NCBI RefSeq assembly: GCF_021531375.1
Contig: NZ_JADYTU010000006.1
Location: 1-64,000, forward strand
Source of the DNA: Pseudoflavonifractor phocaeensis
GTDB taxonomy: Bacteria > Bacillota > Clostridia > Oscillospirales > Oscillospiraceae
Length of the DNA stretch: 64,000 nt
Direction: 5' to 3'
The notes under the pieces were generated by a model, which ran no database searches, was not told where the DNA came from, and saw only the letters and a list, made by a program, of their open reading frames with translations. The translations under genes were made by a program, and so were the position numbers. This document shows, piece by piece, positions 54,885-64,000 of this stretch (positions are counted from its first letter, which is position 1; every line of letters begins with the position of its first letter).

Positions 54885-56099
54885 TTACTTCACCTCTCCA
54901 GTCAGAGCGGCCTCGATGCAGGTGTCCAGGTCGCGAATCATAAAGTTGATGCCGCGGCGGCGGGGATAGTAGGCGCACTTGGGGGACTCGGTGATGCCCA
55001 CCTTGCCCTTCAGATAGTGCCAGCAGGGCTGGTCGGGGCAGGTGTCGGGGATGATCTCGGCGCCGGCGGCGGTGAGGATATCGGTGATGCCCATGCGGTC
55101 GGCCATCTGACGGGCGTGGCTGGATACCAGGATGTACATGGGGATGGCCAGCTGTTTGCCCTCGATGTGCTTGGCGATGTACATGGCCTCCTCCAGGGTG
55201 AAGTGGGGGCAGCCGAACATGGCGAAGTCCACCTTGCCGTCGTGGGCCTCGTCGCTGAACTTCTCCTCAAACTCCTTCAGGTCCTTGTCGGTGATGACCA
55301 CCTCCCGCTTGGGGGCCTTGCCGCCCAGAGCGACCTCCTTGGTGGGTGCCTCGGGCGTAAAGCCCACGATGTGGTACATGCCGTAAGCGCCGGAGGTGTT
55401 CAGCTGAGCGCCCAGATTGCGCAGGGCCTCGGGGGTGATGACCTTGGGCAGGCCGGTAAAGACGGGGATGCCCTCGCCGATCTTATCGCCCATCATGCCC
55501 AGCAGGTGGTACTCGTAGTCGCTCTTCATGTTGGCTTCCACGTGGACCAGGATGTCGCCCTTGCGGTTCTCGTCCAGCAGCAGGCCGTACTCGGGGACGC
55601 AGCCGGTGATGGCGGCGCACAGGGCGCTGTTGGCGCTCTCACGGTTGGAGCGTGCGCCCCAGACGGCGTTGACATAGGGGGTGGCGCTGGACTCGGAGAA
55701 GGCGCAGACCTCGCCGAAATTGGGGACGTTGGTGGCGATATAGGGCGTGCAGTTGTAGGACAGCACCGCGCCCAGGGTCCGGTAGGCATTGTCGGTGCGC
55801 TGCATGTGCTCGGCGGAAGGACCGTCCACGGGGTGGGCGCACTCGCCGGTGAAATGGCCCAGGCAGAAGCCGGGGTTGACGGTGGGAGCCACGCGGCACT
55901 TGGCGCCGGCCTTGACCAGCTTTTCCGCAAACCACAGGTCGCCGGCCTGGTTGCTCAGGGCAACGTGGGCCCGCTTGATGGGGACCATGCGGGGCGCGTC
56001 AAAGCACTCGCCGATGCCGACCTGGATCTTCATGGCGTAGGCAGCGCCCTCACCGTACTTGCCATCCAGCATGGCCTTTTGTTCATCGTTTAAAATCAC
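54885..56099 (-). CDS. Aconitase X catalytic subunit (large subunit)
   Basis: 404 residues from a GTG start (56099) eight bases after AAGGAGG; an ATG 19 codons upstream is much less likely. The AcnX_catalytic (DUF521) signature is clear: PTVNPGFCLGHFTG, SYNCTPYIATNVP, FSESSATPYVNAVWGARSNRE and, near the end, DTCPDQPCW. Such proteins use an iron-sulfur cluster for dehydration of hydroxy acids (for example cis-3-hydroxy-L-proline dehydratase; mevalonate-5-phosphate dehydratase in archaea). Tightly coupled with the small subunit. A candidate GntR operator lies upstream at 56186-56195. Confidence 0.88.
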   Translation of the reverse strand: MILNDEQKAMLDGKYGEGAAYAMKIQVGIGECFDAPRMVPIKRAHVALSNQAGDLWFAEKLVKAGAKCRVAPTVNPGFCLGHFTGECAHPVDGPSAEHMQRTDNAYRTLGAVLSYNCTPYIATNVPNFGEVCAFSESSATPYVNAVWGARSNRESANSALCAAITGCVPEYGLLLDENRKGDILVHVEANMKSDYEYHLLGMMGDKIGEGIPVFTGLPKVITPEALRNLGAQLNTSGAYGMYHIVGFTPEAPTKEVALGGKAPKREVVITDKDLKEFEEKFSDEAHDGKVDFAMFGCPHFTLEEAMYIAKHIEGKQLAIPMYILVSSHARQMADRMGITDILTAAGAEIIPDTCPDQPCWHYLKGKVGITESPKCAYYPRRRGINFMIRDLDTCIEAALTGEVK

Positions 56100-56185
56100 T
56101 GCTTGTTCCTCCTTTTTAAAATCGGTCACAATATTTGATATGGTACGGAAACCCAATTCCTATGAGCGGGACTGCGGAATACAAG

Positions 56186-56195
56186 CTGTATACAG
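56186..56195 (-). promoter_or_regulatory. Candidate GntR operator upstream of the aconitase X genes
   Basis: CTGTATACAG palindrome 87 bases before the large-subunit start, identical in its ten-base core to the site at 57687-57696. Confidence 0.6.
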
Positions 56196-56331
56196 GCTCC
56201 GCTCAGAAAAACGCTCCGTCCCGGGAGCCGCGCCAAAGGCGTTCTTTCACTATTCTCCTTCAAACTAGCGCACTAAAGCATTTTGAGGGAAATTCCCCGA
56301 CAGACGGGGACTCTCCATCCATCGGGACCTG

Positions 56332-56362
56332 ACGAGCCGGCGCCGCGCCAGGAGGCGCCGGC
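56332..56362. terminator. GC-rich hairpin after the LarA-like gene
   Basis: 11-bp stem GAGCCGGCGCC/GGCGCCGGCTC. No T-run follows on the minus strand, so attenuation or transcript stabilisation between the two transcription units is as likely as termination. Confidence 0.45.
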
Positions 56363-56405
56363 TCTGTGTCTGGGCTGCTGCAGCGCGTACGGAGGCTCGT
56401 TCCCC

Positions 56406-57638
56406 TCAGTCCACCAGGCTCAGCCTGGGGTTGGCCTCCACGTCAGCCAGGAGCGCTTCGGAGACCTCGATATACTCCAGATGCAGGGTGTTCTGAATGC
56501 GGATGATCTTGGGATTGTCCCGGTCAATGCCCCGGCAGCACTTCAGCGCCACCCGGATGGCGGTGGCCTCATCCTCCACGGTGCAGGGGATGACCACGTC
56601 GCACAGGAAATTGCCGGCGATGGCGTTGGCGTACATGGACTCCAGGTCCAGCTGCTCAGCCACCTGCTTGGTGATCACGTCGAACAGTCCCACGCCGATA
56701 CCGTTGCCGTGGCTGGCCTTGGTGACGTCCAGCAGGATCAGGCGCTGGTACTTGGGGATGGGCAGGACGAAGGTCTTCAGCACGGAGCTGCGCCCCAGAA
56801 TGTTGGGGTCAAAGCCGGCGCCGGAGATGTCCTTGCCGATCTCCTTGCAGACGATAACGTCGGCCTCGGGGAGCATAATGTAGGGCATGTTGCCCTTGGC
56901 GATCTGGACCAGCTCCTTTTCCCGGGAGATCAGACAATCCGCGGGAATGGCCTCTACGCCGAAGGTCTGGTCATAGGCGTTCTCCAAAATGGCCACGCCG
57001 AAGCCGATGGGGGCCTTTTCCAGGATAATGGAAGCGGTCTCCTCAATGATCTCGGCGAAATCGGCCACATTTTCCTCGTGGACGGCGGTACAGCCCTTTT
57101 GATTGCCCAGGCCGATGACCAGCATCTTGCAGATGCCGCTCTGGAGCGGGCCCACAAAGTCGGTGTGGAGCTTGACCCGGTTGATGGGAACCACCAGGTC
57201 GGCCTCAAAGGCGGCCCGGTCAAACCAGATGGGGCGGCCGTTGGCGCAGTTCCCCAGATGGACGGTGTCCACCGTGGTGACCACGGGGACGCCCAGAGCC
57301 TCCTCGGTCACGCCGTAGCCGGCCAGGACTTCCCGCTGGCCCTCCTCGGTGCCGCCGCCGTGGCTGCCCATGGCGGAGACGATGAACGGCTGGGCTCCCA
57401 TCTCCTCCAGAGCGCGGACCACGGTCTCCACGATGGTGTAAAGGTTGCGGATGCCCCGGCTGCCCACGGCCACCGCTACCCGGGCGCCGGGCTTGACCAG
57501 CCGGCGGATCTCCGGCTTTTCCAGTTCGGCGCGGGTGGTTCCCGCCACGTCCTCCAGACGGCGGTCGTCAAACTGCTGGCGCACCCGGTACATCTTGGGC
57601 AGGGGGCGCTCCATATCTTCCGGCAACAGAATGGGCAT
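56406..57638 (-). CDS. LarA-family (DUF2088) protein, lactate-racemase-like
   Basis: 410 residues from ATG 57638 with AAGGAGG upstream. The N-terminal Rossmann-like domain has VAVAVGSRGIRN and SAMGSHGGGTEEGQREVL, the typical LarA nucleotide-binding region; MLVIGLGNQKGCTAVHE follows. LarA enzymes carry a nickel-pincer cofactor and racemise 2-hydroxy acids; homologues act on malate and other hydroxy acids. No larB/C/E maturation genes are in the window. Its position upstream of aconitase X suggests epimerisation of a hydroxy acid before dehydration, which is inference. Confidence 0.75.
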   Translation of the reverse strand: MPILLPEDMERPLPKMYRVRQQFDDRRLEDVAGTTRAELEKPEIRRLVKPGARVAVAVGSRGIRNLYTIVETVVRALEEMGAQPFIVSAMGSHGGGTEEGQREVLAGYGVTEEALGVPVVTTVDTVHLGNCANGRPIWFDRAAFEADLVVPINRVKLHTDFVGPLQSGICKMLVIGLGNQKGCTAVHEENVADFAEIIEETASIILEKAPIGFGVAILENAYDQTFGVEAIPADCLISREKELVQIAKGNMPYIMLPEADVIVCKEIGKDISGAGFDPNILGRSSVLKTFVLPIPKYQRLILLDVTKASHGNGIGVGLFDVITKQVAEQLDLESMYANAIAGNFLCDVVIPCTVEDEATAIRVALKCCRGIDRDNPKIIRIQNTLHLEYIEVSEALLADVEANPRLSLVD

Positions 57639-57684
57639 GGTATCCCTCCTTATTATGTCATGTGAAAACACATCGTATTTCACA

Positions 57685-57934: not shown

Positions 57935-59593
57935 TCACAGGACGATCCCGTATTTTCTGATCCGGTACTGTAAGCTCTGCCGCAGGATGCCCAGGGTCTG
58001 GGCGGTGCGGGAGATGTTTCCGCCGCAGTGGTCCAGGGCCTGGACGATGATCTGGTGCTCGTAGTCGTCCAGCAGGCTCTGCAGGGTGGCGGAGGAGAAG
58101 TCGATGGCCGGCGCGGTGTCGGCGGATGCGGCCGGCGCGGTCCGGCTCTTCAGCAGATAGGAGGGCAGGTGCTCCGGCCGCATGGTGCTGGAGTCGGCCA
58201 CGTTCTGGGCATAGTCCAGAACATGGAACAGCTCCCGCACATTGCCCGGCCAGTGGTAGCTGCGCAGGATGGCGTAGACCTGGGGGTCTACCTCGGTAAT
58301 GCCGTGGACATACTGGTAGGAGGTGGCGTTCAGGTGGTACCGGACCAGTTCCTCCAGGTCCTCCAGGTGCTCCCGCAGGGGGGGCAGCTCCAGCATCACC
58401 GTGGACAGCCGGTAAAACAGGTCCCGGCGGAACTGGTTGTCGGCAATGGCGCGGAAGGGGTCCTCGTTGCAGGAGGAGATGATCCGCACATCCAGCTTCA
58501 GGTCCTTGTTCCCGCCCACCCGGCGGAAGGTGTTTTCCTGGATGACCCGGAGGATCTTGGACTGCATCGCCAGACTCATGGAGTTCAGCTCATCCAGGAA
58601 CAGGGTGCCTCCGCTGGCCTCCTCGAAGTAGCCCGCCTTGTCCTCGCTGCCGGTAAAGCTGCCCTTCTGGGTGCCGAAGAGAAGGCTCTCGATCAGCGTT
58701 TCCGGGATGGCGGCGCAGTTGATGGCCAGAAATTTCTTGCCCCGGCGGGGGCTGGCCTGGTGGATGCTCTGGGCAAAGATCTCCTTGCCGGTACCTGTCT
58801 CGCCCACCAGCAGGACGGAGCTGTTCTGGGGGGCTACCTTTTGGGCGATGGCTACCGCATCCCGGAGCCTTTGGCTGTGGCCGATAACATTTTCAAAGGT
58901 ATAGCCGGAGAAGGTGATCTGGCTCCCCCGGGAGGCGAAGGACTTCAGCGCCCGCTGGGTCTCCTCCATTCGCTTGATGTTCCGCTGTACGATCTCCTCC
59001 GTCTGCTCAAAGACCACGGCCCCCAGCAGCTCCCCTTCCCGCAGGATAGGGTAGGAGGTATTGGCGGTGGCGATGGAGGTGTCGTCGCTGGCCTTGAAAT
59101 GGTCCACCCGGTTGATGACGGGGGACTGGGTCCGCAGGGCGGTCATGGTGGTGCTGACGCTCTCGTCCAGGTTGTACAGGTCCAGCAGGTGGCGGCCCTG
59201 GGGATCGACGCCGCTGGGAATGTGGGAGATCTTGCGGCTGACCTTGTTGAAGTAGACAGCACAGGCGTTCTTGTCATAGATCTGCACGCCCTCGGCGACC
59301 TGGTCCAAGGCCCTGGCAAAGAGGTAGGCCCGGTGGTCCTCTCGGGAGAGAAGGAGATAGGTGCTCTCCCCCGGCCCGGGCAGGAAGCGGTAATAAAAGG
59401 TATCCTCATCCCAGCGGAAGGAGCCGGACTCCTGCCCGGCGTGAATAGGAAACACGGAGGCGGCCCGCCGCCGCCGGGCCACCCAGCTTTCGAAGAGCAG
59501 GTGGTAGAGTTTTTTCGACTCTTCACTGCCCCAGGCCACCGTCTGAAAGCGGCCGTCCAGGTCCAGCGTAAACAATACGTCATAAAAATCCAT
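57935..59593 (-). CDS. Sigma-54-dependent transcriptional activator (PAS-AAA+-HTH)
   Basis: 552 residues. An N-terminal sensory region with a PAS-like domain (EGVQIYDKNACAVYFNKVSR, about 97-125), an AAA+ domain with Walker A GETGTGKE, the sigma-54 contact loop as KGSFTGSEDKAG (GAFTGA variant, GSFTGS) and Walker B GGTLFLDELNS, and a C-terminal Fis-type helix-turn-helix (GGNISRTAQTLGILRQSLQYRI). No receiver domain, so it probably senses a small molecule. It diverges from the BCCT/lyase operon, which has a -24/-12 promoter, and is the likely activator. AGGAGG precedes the ATG. Confidence 0.93.
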   Translation of the reverse strand: MDFYDVLFTLDLDGRFQTVAWGSEESKKLYHLLFESWVARRRRAASVFPIHAGQESGSFRWDEDTFYYRFLPGPGESTYLLLSREDHRAYLFARALDQVAEGVQIYDKNACAVYFNKVSRKISHIPSGVDPQGRHLLDLYNLDESVSTTMTALRTQSPVINRVDHFKASDDTSIATANTSYPILREGELLGAVVFEQTEEIVQRNIKRMEETQRALKSFASRGSQITFSGYTFENVIGHSQRLRDAVAIAQKVAPQNSSVLLVGETGTGKEIFAQSIHQASPRRGKKFLAINCAAIPETLIESLLFGTQKGSFTGSEDKAGYFEEASGGTLFLDELNSMSLAMQSKILRVIQENTFRRVGGNKDLKLDVRIISSCNEDPFRAIADNQFRRDLFYRLSTVMLELPPLREHLEDLEELVRYHLNATSYQYVHGITEVDPQVYAILRSYHWPGNVRELFHVLDYAQNVADSSTMRPEHLPSYLLKSRTAPAASADTAPAIDFSSATLQSLLDDYEHQIIVQALDHCGGNISRTAQTLGILRQSLQYRIRKYGIVL

Positions 59594-59673: not shown

Positions 59674-59688
59674 TTTGCGTAGCGCAAA
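59674..59688 (+). promoter_or_regulatory. Candidate upstream activator site for the sigma-54 operon
   Basis: TTTGCG-TAG-CGCAAA, a perfect palindrome with three-base spacer, about 145 bases upstream of the -24/-12 promoter, where enhancer-binding proteins usually sit. Another AATGCAAAAA stretch is adjacent. Confidence 0.6.
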
Positions 59689-59829: not shown

Positions 59830-59847
59830 TTGGCCCGTCCCTTGCTT
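59830..59847 (+). promoter_or_regulatory. Sigma-54 (-24/-12) promoter of the BCCT/lyase operon
   Basis: TTGGCCCGTCCCTTGCTT: the invariant GG (59832-59833) and GC (59844-59845) are separated by exactly ten bases, matching the -24/-12 consensus. It lies about 70 bases before the BCCT start codon. No good sigma-A promoter is seen there. Confidence 0.85.
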
Positions 59848-59913: not shown

Positions 59914-61497
59914 ATGAAACCTGAAGCAAACAAAAAGCCGATCCGCTGGAACGTATTTGTCCCCTGTTTCCTGGTCATCGGCGGCGCTGCCCTGCTGGGC
60001 ATCATCAACAACGAGTGGCTGACCAGCGTCACCAGCAGCATCTTCGGCTGGTCCCTGAGCACCTTTGGCTGGCTGTATCAGATCGTGGCCATGGTCACCC
60101 TGCTGCTGGCCGTCCTGCTGACCTTTACCAAGGTGGGCAAGATCCGCTTCGGCGGCCCTGAGGCCAAGGCCAAGTATTCCTTCGGCTCCTGGTTTGCCAT
60201 GACCCTTACCGGCGGCATCGCCACCGGCCTGATCACCTACGGCGTCAACGAGGTGCTGATCTACTTCGGCAACATCTACGGCGAGCTGGACGCCCTGGGC
60301 ATTCAGCCCCTCAGCGACGAGGCAGCCTGGTTCTCCATGGGCCGCTGCTTCTACAACTGGACCTTTATCCCCTACGCCATGTACGCCCTGTCCGGCGTGC
60401 TCATCGCCTATATGTACTTCAACCGCAAGAAGGACCTGTCCGTGGCCGCCTCCCTCACCCCCCTGTTCGGTGACAAGGTGACCAAGGGTATCTGGGTGGT
60501 TCTGGTGGACGTGCTGTCCGTCCTGGCTATCGCTCTGGGTCTGGCCGCCTCTCTGGGCGCCGGCCTGGCTCTGATCGGCACCGGCCTCCATGCCGCCTAC
60601 GGCGTGGCCCAGGGCCCCATCGTCTGGTTCGCTCTGACCGCCATCATCACCATCACCTTCACCGTGGCTTCCGTCACCGGCATCGACAAGGGCATCAAGT
60701 GGCTGGCCGGTCTGACTTCCAAGATCTTCTATGTCCTGCTGATCCTGCTGTTCATCATTGGCCCCACCGTCTATATCCTGAACATGGCCAATGTGGGTCT
60801 GGGCTACTGGCTGGACCGCTTCTGGACCTGGGGCTTTGACCCCTACACCGTGGGCGGCTCCGCTCTGGTCACCTGGTGGACCATGTATGACTGGGCCATC
60901 TGGATCGCCTACGCTCCCCTGATGGGCATCTTCTTCGCCATCATTGCCTATGGCCGCACCATCCGTCAGTTCCTCATCGTCAACTGGATCCTGCCCGCTT
61001 CCTTTGGCTTTGTGTGGTTCGCCATCTGGGGCGGCACCGCTCTCCACTGGCAGATCGCCGGCAAGGCCGACATCATTGCCGCCATCAACGAGGGAGGCGC
61101 CGTGGCCGGTATCTGGGAGTTCCTGAAGCAGATCCCCCTGGGCATGATCATCATCCCGGTCATTATCCTGGCTCTGATCGCCGCCTTCTCCACCACCGCC
61201 GACACCATGTCCACCACCATCGCGGCTCTGTGCACCAAGGGCGCCCGTCATGACGAAGAGCCCGCCGTGTGGCAGAAGATCGTCTGGGGCGTGTCCATCG
61301 GTCTGATCGCCTGCATCATGGTCGCCTTCGGCGGCGGCGCTCAGGGCGTGGACGGCGTGAAGTACCTGGCTGCCTGCGGCGGCTTCGTGGTGCTGATCGT
61401 CTTCATTCTTCAGGTTGCGGCTGCCTTTAAGGTGTTCTTCTTCGATCCCGAGACCAAGAAGGACATCGTGGACAGCGTGGACCAGATCGAGGAGTAA
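59914..61497 (+). CDS. BCCT-family betaine/carnitine/choline-type transporter
   Basis: 527 residues with twelve membrane helices. The BCCT signature lies in WWTMYDWAIWIAYAPLMG and IAYGRTIRQF (about 330-353), with FSTTADTMSTTIAALCTKG near 430. The N- and C-termini are short, so it lacks the long osmosensory tail of BetP and is more like an uptake or exchange carrier (CaiT-like). BCCT substrates carry a quaternary trimethylammonium group. It is followed after 49 bases by a lyase-fold gene lacking the MIO triad, in one sigma-54-driven operon, which suggests import of that enzyme's substrate. Confidence 0.93.
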   Translation: MKPEANKKPIRWNVFVPCFLVIGGAALLGIINNEWLTSVTSSIFGWSLSTFGWLYQIVAMVTLLLAVLLTFTKVGKIRFGGPEAKAKYSFGSWFAMTLTGGIATGLITYGVNEVLIYFGNIYGELDALGIQPLSDEAAWFSMGRCFYNWTFIPYAMYALSGVLIAYMYFNRKKDLSVAASLTPLFGDKVTKGIWVVLVDVLSVLAIALGLAASLGAGLALIGTGLHAAYGVAQGPIVWFALTAIITITFTVASVTGIDKGIKWLAGLTSKIFYVLLILLFIIGPTVYILNMANVGLGYWLDRFWTWGFDPYTVGGSALVTWWTMYDWAIWIAYAPLMGIFFAIIAYGRTIRQFLIVNWILPASFGFVWFAIWGGTALHWQIAGKADIIAAINEGGAVAGIWEFLKQIPLGMIIIPVIILALIAAFSTTADTMSTTIAALCTKGARHDEEPAVWQKIVWGVSIGLIACIMVAFGGGAQGVDGVKYLAACGGFVVLIVFILQVAAAFKVFFFDPETKKDIVDSVDQIEE

Positions 61498-61546: not shown

Positions 61547-63079
61547 ATGAACGAGATCAAGAAAATCGTATTGGGTGATCCCATCACCCTGGAGGACTTT
61601 GTGGCGGTGGCCCGTTTCGGGGCCAAGGTGGAGTTTTCCCCCGCCTACTGTGAGCGGGTGAACCGCTCCCGCACCCTGGTGGAGGGCTGGGTCGCCGAGG
61701 AGAGAGTGATGTACGGCGTCACCACCGGCTTCGGCGCCCTGTGCACCAAGGCCATCGGGAAAGAGGACACCGCCCAGCTCCAGGAAAATATCCTGCTGTC
61801 CCACTCCGTCTCCGTGGGCGAGCCTCTGAGCGTGGAGCGGGTCCGGGGCATCATGCTCATGGTGCTTCAGAATCTGGGCCAGGGCTACAGCGGCGTCCGG
61901 CTGTCCGTGCTGGAGCGCTACCGCGACTTCCTGAACCTGGGTCTGACCCCCTGGGCTCCCGGTGACGGCAGCGTGGGCTATCTGTCCCCCGAGGCCCACA
62001 TGGCTCTGGTCCTGCTGGGCAAGGGCAAGGCCTACTGGCAGGGCGAGCTGATCCCCGGAGACCAGGCTCTGGCCAAGGCCGGTCTGGAGCCCATGGTCCT
62101 CAGCTCCAAGGAGGGCCTGGCCCTGGTGTCCGGCACCACCTCCGCCACCGCCATGGCCGCCCTGGCTCTGTATGATATGCAGCAGGCGGCCAAGTCCGCC
62201 GACGTCATCGGCGCCATGTCTCTGGAGGCTCTGAAGGGCGTGATGAACGCCTTTGACGAGCGGGTCATGTCCGTGCGTCCCCATCAGGACCAGGCGGACA
62301 CCGCTGAGAACGTCCGCCGCATCCTCAGCGATTCCGGCATCATGAAGAAGTACGAGGGCAGCCGGGTGCAGGACGCTCTGTCCCTGCGCTGCATTCCCCA
62401 GCTCCACGGCGCGGCCAAGAAGACCCTGGCCGACGCCCGCAAGACCATCGAGATCGAGATCAACTCCTGCTGCGACAACCCCATCCTCTGGCCTGAGGAG
62501 GGCAACGAGGACGTGATCTCCGCCTGCAACGCGGACTCCGCCTATGTGGGTATGGAGATGGACAGCGCCTGCATCGCCGCCGTGTCTCTGGCTAAGATGT
62601 CCGAGCGGCGGAACAACCGCATCGTGGACGGCTCCCTGTCCGGCTACCCCTGGTTCTGCATCAAGGAGCCCGGTCTGAACTCCGGTCTGATGATCCCCCA
62701 GTACGCCCAGGCCGGTCTGATCAACGAGATGCGCGGTCTGGCCACCCCCTCCACCATCGACAACACCCCCACCTGCGGCAACCAGGAGGACTATGTGGCC
62801 ATGGGCTACTACGCCTGCAAGAAGGCCGGCCCCATGGCGGAAAAGCTGGAGTACGTACTGGCCATGGAGCTGCTGTCCGCCTTCCAGGTCCAGCAGTTTG
62901 TGGACCCCGACGTGGCCCGCAGCTCTGCCACCGCTGCCGTGCTGGCCGAGATCGGAGCCCATGTCCCCGTTATGGAGCAGGATATGCTCCTCTACCCCCA
63001 CATTGAGTACCTGAAGGACTTTATCCACTCCGGAGAGCTGCTCCGGGTGGCGGAATCTGTGACAGGAGCGCTGAAGTAA
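61547..63079 (+). CDS. HAL/PAL-fold lyase lacking the MIO tripeptide; candidate ergothionase
   Basis: 510 residues, collinear with histidine/phenylalanine ammonia lyases: YGVTTGFG (56-63), QDALSLRCIPQLHG, DNPILWP, SERRNNRIVDG, LNSGLMIPQY, NQEDYVAMG. At the cofactor site HAL enzymes read GSVG-ASG-DLxPLAHM; here it reads GSVGYLSPEAHM (141-152), so the Ala-Ser-Gly that cyclises to MIO is precisely missing. The Asn of the following NGT motif is Ser195. Such proteins cannot use the MIO electrophile. Ergothionase, which releases trimethylamine from ergothioneine, is a known MIO-free member; the adjacent BCCT carrier fits a trimethylated substrate. Function is inferred; structure is certain. Confidence 0.8.
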   Translation: MNEIKKIVLGDPITLEDFVAVARFGAKVEFSPAYCERVNRSRTLVEGWVAEERVMYGVTTGFGALCTKAIGKEDTAQLQENILLSHSVSVGEPLSVERVRGIMLMVLQNLGQGYSGVRLSVLERYRDFLNLGLTPWAPGDGSVGYLSPEAHMALVLLGKGKAYWQGELIPGDQALAKAGLEPMVLSSKEGLALVSGTTSATAMAALALYDMQQAAKSADVIGAMSLEALKGVMNAFDERVMSVRPHQDQADTAENVRRILSDSGIMKKYEGSRVQDALSLRCIPQLHGAAKKTLADARKTIEIEINSCCDNPILWPEEGNEDVISACNADSAYVGMEMDSACIAAVSLAKMSERRNNRIVDGSLSGYPWFCIKEPGLNSGLMIPQYAQAGLINEMRGLATPSTIDNTPTCGNQEDYVAMGYYACKKAGPMAEKLEYVLAMELLSAFQVQQFVDPDVARSSATAAVLAEIGAHVPVMEQDMLLYPHIEYLKDFIHSGELLRVAESVTGALK

Positions 63080-63080
63080 T

Positions 63081-63335
63081 ATGAAGAAACAGATAGAACG
63101 CGTGGAGATCGACCTGAAGAAGATTTTTTTGACGCCCCCCAACACCAACCGCGAGCGGATCACCCTGCTGGTCATGATGGTGGTGCTGTTCGTCATGTTC
63201 TTCGGTCCCATCTGCTTTACGGACATTCCGCCGGTCAAGGCCATCGCTCTGGCCAGCCTGCCCACTCTGTCCATCTCCTGGGGCTGGATCGTGCTGCTGC
63301 GTTCTCTGTTCCGGAAATCTGACTTCTGCCGCTGA
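63081..63335 (+). CDS. Small two-helix membrane protein of the lyase operon
   Basis: 84 residues beginning one base after the lyase stop. A charged N-terminus (MKKQIERVEIDLKKIF) and two membrane helices (about 28-47 and 52-73) ending in a basic, Cys-containing tail (RSLFRKSDFCR). No family recognised. The tight spacing and absence of a separate promoter show it belongs to the BCCT/lyase operon; it could be an accessory subunit of the transporter or anchor for the enzyme. Confidence 0.75.
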   Translation: MKKQIERVEIDLKKIFLTPPNTNRERITLLVMMVVLFVMFFGPICFTDIPPVKAIALASLPTLSISWGWIVLLRSLFRKSDFCR

Positions 63336-63718: not shown

Positions 63719-64000
63719 ATGGAACTGATACAAAGCCAGGTACAGCGCCTCAGCCAGCAGCAGCTGCAGGGCGTGGAGCTGCTCCAGATGAGCGCCCAGG
63801 AGCTGGAGTCCTATCTCCGGGAGCTGTCCCAGGAGAATCCGGTGGTGGAGCTGGAGGAGCACTTCGCCCCTGCCCAGGAGTCGCCTCGGGAGGAGGACTT
63901 GCTGCGCCGCCTGCGCTGGCTGGAGGACAACGACCGCCAGAACCACTACTACCAGCACATAGATGAGGAGGAGCTGGACCCCCTGGTTCGGGTCAGTGGG
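63719..64000 (+). CDS. rpoN: RNA polymerase sigma-54 factor, N-terminal fragment (runs off window)
   Basis: The first 94 codons show the Gln/Leu-rich region I of sigma-54: QSQVQRLSQQQLQGVELL and MSAQELESYLRELSQENP, which contacts the activator and the -12 element. GGGAGGG precedes the ATG. Core-binding region and the RpoN box lie outside the window. It directly follows a sigma-54-driven operon and its activator, so the factor and a target operon are neighbours. Confidence 0.9.
   Translation, partial: MELIQSQVQRLSQQQLQGVELLQMSAQELESYLRELSQENPVVELEEHFAPAQESPREEDLLRRLRWLEDNDRQNHYYQHIDEEELDPLVRVSG

Follow-up and report, generated by a model that had tools for sequence, protein, structure and literature searches.

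A HAL-family protein without the MIO tripeptide, encoded beside a BCCT transporter in Pseudoflavonifractor phocaeensis, as a candidate hercynine trimethylamine-lyase

HAL uses its MIO electrophile to capture the substrate's amino group and make ammonia a leaving group; without this prosthetic group a HAL cannot act on histidine. A trimethylammonium group leaves unaided, and this is how ergothionase (PDB 6s7j/6s7q), an enzyme that frees trimethylamine (TMA) from ergothioneine, is generally understood to work. Yan et al. (ACS Catal, 2022) are said to have described a TMA lyase from Agrobacterium radiobacter that serves in ergothioneine sulfonate catabolism; it is probably a further HAL homologue without MIO, encoded in a hut-like cluster. 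Ergothionase is a HAL-fold enzyme without MIO, and gut Clostridia, C. symbiosum among them, break down ergothioneine (PMC13405746).

The window, i.e. the whole 64,000-nucleotide stretch of P. phocaeensis DNA that was analysed, encodes a full-length member of the HAL/PAL superfamily (Table 1), which matched PF00221 (Lyase_aromatic) over residues 13-469 in the profile search and aligned end to end with the HAL of P. putida. Among solved structures, HALs matched it best both in sequence and in fold (Foldseek TM ~0.8 for a predicted model of mean pLDDT 67), with bit scores of 293 to HAL vs 182 to ergothionase. The protein scored below the cut-off of the curated NCBIfam hutH equivalog TIGR01225 (504.9 bits; cut-off 539.15) and just passed the broader subfamily model NF006871 (524.3 vs 524). 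A reading of the active-site geometry was rejected for this model, in which most active-site loops, at the tetramer interface, had a pLDDT under 50. Translation and alignment to HAL gave exactly three residues missing from the active-site loop: the expected motif GSVG-ASGD-LAPLAHM reads GSVG-Y-LSPEAHM, the Ala-Ser-Gly tripeptide of MIO-dependent HALs is absent and the four residues ASGD are reduced to a single Tyr. The precise loss of the tripeptide and its location were thus correctly given in the initial annotation; the replacement of Asp by Tyr145, also proposed there, holds as far as the single Tyr, which is equivalent to Ala142 or Asp145 according to the alignment.

Table 1. Features of the cassette and its surroundings in the window
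Feature	Position	Strand	Evidence
Divergent sigma-54-dependent activator, PrdR-like, AAA+ and Fis-type HTH	57935..59593	-	PF00158, PF02954; NF041552 below cut-off
Inverted repeat TTTGCGTAGCGCAAA, candidate activator-binding site (putative function)	59674..59688	.	TGCAAA-type inverted repeats in several sister cassettes
-24/-12 (sigma-54) promoter TGGCCCGTCCCTTGCT, 67 bp before BCCT start	59831..59846	+	11/12 consensus positions
BCCT transporter, subtype A	59914..61497	+	PF02028, 366 bits (cut-off 27); PDB matches; subtype comparison
MIO-less HAL-family lyase (GSVGYL subfamily), 510 aa, ATG	61547..63079	+	PF00221, 547 bits; tree; purifying selection
Loop GSVGYLSPEAHM replacing GSVGASGDLAPLAHM of HAL; residues 141-152; no MIO tripeptide	61967..62002	+	translation, alignments
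84-aa protein, two hydrophobic stretches, directly after lyase; candidate BCCT-A accessory subunit	63081..63335	+	homologues beside BCCT-A genes
rpoN (sigma-54) start, continues past window	63719..64000	+	PF00309 on window part; 452-aa ORF in L103

The divergent activator, -24/-12 promoter, BCCT and lyase form a sigma-54 cassette that recurs in other gut genomes. The score of the window promoter was reached by 4 of 2000 shuffles, and equivalent sites were present in seven of eight sister cassettes; those of P. phocaeensis, C. transplantifaecale (three), Blautia and the second locus of the window's genome lay in the same place, with 11-12 of 12 positions and no more than 6 of 2000 shuffles each. 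The scan of sister cassettes gave no convincing -24/-12 site at the Lawsonibacter locus. The rpoN gene adjoins the cassette in the window and in Blautia, and also, by N-terminal sequence, in P. phocaeensis and Lawsonibacter. Three HAL-family genes were found in the window's genome. One is canonical and MIO-bearing (GSLGSSGD) and lies at G000:C11:156161-157690 (loci L001, L102); besides the window gene there is another MIO-less one, which has an activator and a BCCT to itself. Genes for an aconitase X and a nickel-pincer isomerase group 22 protein (54885-57683, minus strand) lie upstream of the activator, the former closest to the NCBIfam model for cis-3-hydroxy-L-proline dehydratase, below its cut-off. 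Their membership of the system found no support, their signature having been seen only in the P. phocaeensis locus and in none from C. transplantifaecale or Blautia.

Profile searches returned no family match for the 84-aa protein. Homologues 55-72% identical adjoin all five BCCT subtype A genes (window; L012, 9542-9805; L013, 11183-11434; L098, 7681-7926; L100, 7032-7283); no such neighbour was seen for the other BCCT subtype (L010, L101). The protein is a candidate accessory subunit of subtype A. The five subtype A transporters, one of them from an ergothionase-type cluster, are 61-83% identical mutually. Since identity between GSxGYL cassettes and the ergothionase-type cassette is 61-66%, the two kinds of cassette probably carry transporters of similar cargo, and the shared subtype would link both MIO-less lyase kinds to related substrates.

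Together with the window lyase, 24 proteins carry the GSxGY[LI] loop; the 23 further members come from gut Firmicutes, one deltaproteobacterium and Proteobacteria. A BCCT or OpuAC gene was present within 1.5 kb at 9 of 22 GSVGYL loci and at 0 of 57 canonical HAL loci (Fisher p about 2e-6, a value that ignores relatedness among loci that are not independent); within the same distance, 24 of the 57 canonical loci had HutU instead. Co-occurrence with BCCT genes, as anticipated from the window, was found at many loci. At others the partner was a sodium:solute symporter (SSF; deltaproteobacterium Smac51 and one C. transplantifaecale cassette), a sodium:neurotransmitter symporter (SNF; one P. phocaeensis cassette), an amino-acid-type ABC importer or no transporter, and a universal BCCT link was rejected.

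On Klebsiella plasmids (L015/L112), a GSVGYLIATAH protein is clustered with HutU, HutI, HutF, HutG, HutC and HutD and with an ABC importer that has OpuAC, of the glycine-betaine type, for its binding protein. The cluster lacks a canonical HutH, and the MIO-less gene stands in its place in the hut operon. In Thalassospira marina, a GSAGYL protein accompanies HutU, HutF, HutG, HutC, an amino-acid-type ABC importer and a DAO-family oxidase. These two hut clusters point to urocanate as the product, an argument that spans some distance, the Klebsiella and Thalassospira members being about 35-41% identical to the window lyase. In the window's genome, no urocanate hydratase was found and no urocanate reductase was recognised, and urocanate seems to be an end product there or to take another route. 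Plasmid records label the proteins matched in them as histidine or aromatic amino acid ammonia-lyase, with the latter name used for L112/L015.

The initial annotation had described the remaining fold motifs as intact. This is so for the histidine-type pocket, with H83, M382, E414 and R283 (HAL numbering) all present in the window lyase, but not for the surroundings of the MIO position, where Y280 is replaced by Leu, N195 by Ser and F329 by Ala. All 24 GSxGY[LI] members keep Tyr53, Arg283, Met382, Tyr386 and Glu414, as well as the Tyr of the loop, and 23 of 24 keep His83, the exception being Ser in L060. Position 414 separates histidine-type enzymes (Glu) from phenylalanine/tyrosine-type enzymes (Gln): Glu was found in 24/24 clade members, 9/9 ergothionase-type proteins and 57/58 canonical HALs, and Gln in all three Tyr/Phe aminomutase controls. 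Across the clade, Tyr280 is Leu and Phe329 a small residue in most members, and Asn195 is Ser in about half; Y280 is also Leu in 9/9 ergothionase-type proteins. A sub-branch of the GSVGYL clade (L014/L044/L062) retains Tyr280 and Phe329, possibly for another substrate, and L014 and L062 adjoin SSF symporters. The general pattern would fit an imidazole substrate with a larger group in place of the amino group.

The following scheme is offered as a putative one. The BCCT would import an amino acid that bears a trimethylammonium group, hercynine (histidine betaine) being the likeliest, with the sigma-54 activator turning the cassette on, presumably when substrate is present. In the lyase, Arg281 (HAL R283) would hold the substrate carboxylate and the conserved histidine-type pocket (HAL H83, M382, E414) the imidazole, while Tyr56 (HAL Y53) would remove the beta-proton. 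As trimethylamine leaves readily by itself, the MIO electrophile would be unnecessary. The shortened loop and Tyr145, together with Leu at HAL position 280 and smaller side chains at 195 and 329, would leave room for the trimethylammonium group, which may be contacted by cation-pi interaction. The predicted products are urocanate and TMA; next to the proteobacterial members, hut genes would take the urocanate further. MIO-free elimination of a pre-activated group, most likely trimethylammonium, is likely in general terms. The different elimination chemistry first suggested for this protein is supported to that extent, although MIO-free elimination is already known within this fold from ergothionase. 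A histidine-betaine TMA lyase is the simplest reading because the base, the Arg and the imidazole pocket are kept, the MIO is lost and a betaine importer gene lies directly upstream. The varied or absent importers, the residues of L014/L044/L062 and the lack of a urocanate hydratase in the window's genome were counted against it. On balance, hercynine may be the main substrate, converted to urocanate by MIO-free elimination of TMA, a reading that is about evenly poised.

The same chemistry could serve another activated substrate, such as a different aromatic betaine (that of tryptophan, tyrosine or phenylalanine), ergothioneine sulfonate or some other N-methylated histidine. The variety of transporters, SSF and SNF among them, the Ser at position 83 in L060 and the DAO-family N-methyl amino acid oxidase adjoining the Thalassospira gene would suit such substrates, and ergothioneine sulfonate would likewise be compatible with the hut-operon context. 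The combination of E414 and M382, which indicates an imidazole ring, and the hut genes of the relatives argue the other way, and on these comparisons a substrate of this kind appears rather unlikely.

A divergent ergothionase, eliminating TMA from ergothioneine without MIO to give thiourocanate, was also considered. Both proteins share the fold and lack MIO, the Leu at 280 is common to all nine ergothionase-type proteins, a related BCCT adjoins an ergothionase-type gene, and ergothioneine-degrading gut Clostridia such as C. symbiosum are known (PMC13405746). The window lyase is nevertheless nearer to HutH in bit score, its M382 and Y386 are of HAL type (each 0/9 in the ergothionase class and 24/24 in the GSxGY[LI] clade), its loop deletion is different, and its relatives have a full hut gene context. 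In a tree built without the loop columns, which took in 16 of the GSxGYL proteins, these formed a separate clade of moderate support (85/86), and the nine ergothionase-type proteins formed another (100/100) with the window lyase outside it. Two genomes (G384, G385) carry both ergothionase-type and GSxGYL genes, and their presence side by side suggests different substrates. While the window lyase is a MIO-less protein of HAL fold, as ergothionase is, it has neither the loop with Asp nor Lys386, and classing it as an ergothionase was ruled out by the loop, the clade and residues 382/386; action on ergothioneine as a divergent form is judged unlikely. The AU test did not reject one common clade of MIO-less enzymes (p 0.258), so one loss of MIO or two are both possible, and two independent losses are not claimed as proven.

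Some further ergothionase-type loci were observed. At L097 (G384), which has three copies, and at L100 (G385), ergothionase-type genes with the loop GSVGEADITT adjoin an apparent three-part xanthine-dehydrogenase-type hydroxylase, seen by N-terminal sequence only; at L100 a subtype A BCCT adjoins as well. A deep branch of the ergothionase class in Rhizobium (L018, 4001-5485) has the loop GSIGAADLAPLAH and adjoins OpuAC and an ornithine cyclodeaminase-like gene.

An inactive paralogue, or a HAL with a sensory or regulatory role, would be in keeping with the loss of a prosthetic group that HAL needs for histidine. The lyase is under purifying selection, however, in agreement with the initial view that the loss is not decay: against its closest relatives dN was 0.08-0.16 and dS 0.43-1.35, dN/dS was 0.12-0.25 where calculable and pN/pS was 0.22-0.32. 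Conservation of Tyr53, Arg283 and Glu414 throughout the clade and the presence in many genomes of an inducible operon of its own with a transporter also speak against inactivity, which appears very improbable. The same loop was found in relatives at 87, 81, 79 and 73% identity (P. phocaeensis, Lawsonibacter, Clostridium transplantifaecale, Blautia) from four independent assemblies. Close homologues with ASG were sought and none was found above ~47% identity, the nearest with intact ASG or SSG being about 40-46% identical, and the loss stands. The family is sporadic: close members turned up in 5 of the 299 genomes sampled from the Blautia family and in 2 of 200 from the window's own family, the window's genome counted. 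A sequencing or assembly error as the cause of the missing triplet was dismissed, with a negligible probability, since independently assembled genomes of many species have this loop too.

Taken as a whole, the GSxGY[LI] proteins might tentatively be seen as an undescribed subfamily of hercynine TMA-lyases, derived from HutH by a MIO loss separate from that of ergothionase, giving urocanate and TMA in the gut, with a complete histidine-betaine degradation operon in Proteobacteria and a BCCT with a new small membrane subunit in gut Firmicutes; this full picture is less likely than not. A literature search found no paper linking HAL with BCCT, and only two that bring hercynine and trimethylamine together with a lyase, within a coverage that excluded the main ergothionase literature. 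If the picture is true, the HAL fold sheds its prosthetic group, perhaps repeatedly, when a leaving group comes with the substrate, and microbes form trimethylamine and urocanate from a dietary histidine betaine by a route that has gone unrecognised. Trimethylamine and urocanate are precursors of TMAO and imidazole propionate. Given the missing MIO, the ammonia-lyase annotation of the plasmid-record homologues is doubtful, and a one-motif rule could correct genome annotation.

Among known systems, HutH (P. putida, 1b8f) is closest to the window lyase in sequence and fold, sharing the pocket and the catalytic Y53; it differs in having ASG, Y280, N195 and F329, all of which are changed in the window lyase. 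The window BCCT has PF02028 in common with BetP, the trimethylamine transporter 8zw8 and CaiT; its nearest solved relatives are 8zw8 and BetP, at only ~200 bits to the nearest, and unlike these three transporters it is accompanied by the 84-aa membrane protein. Ergothionase (T. denticola 6s7j/6s7q, Burkholderia sp. HME13) resembles the window lyase in its HAL fold without MIO, the predicted release of TMA by 1,2-elimination, the retained equivalents of Tyr53 and Glu414, the Leu at 280 and, sometimes, a BCCT neighbour. In alignment, its loop SSIGEGDITTLSHIG is one residue short and keeps the Asp, whereas that of the window clade is three short and has Tyr, and the ergothionase class lacks M382 and mostly has Lys at 386 (6/9), where the window clade has Met382 and Tyr386.
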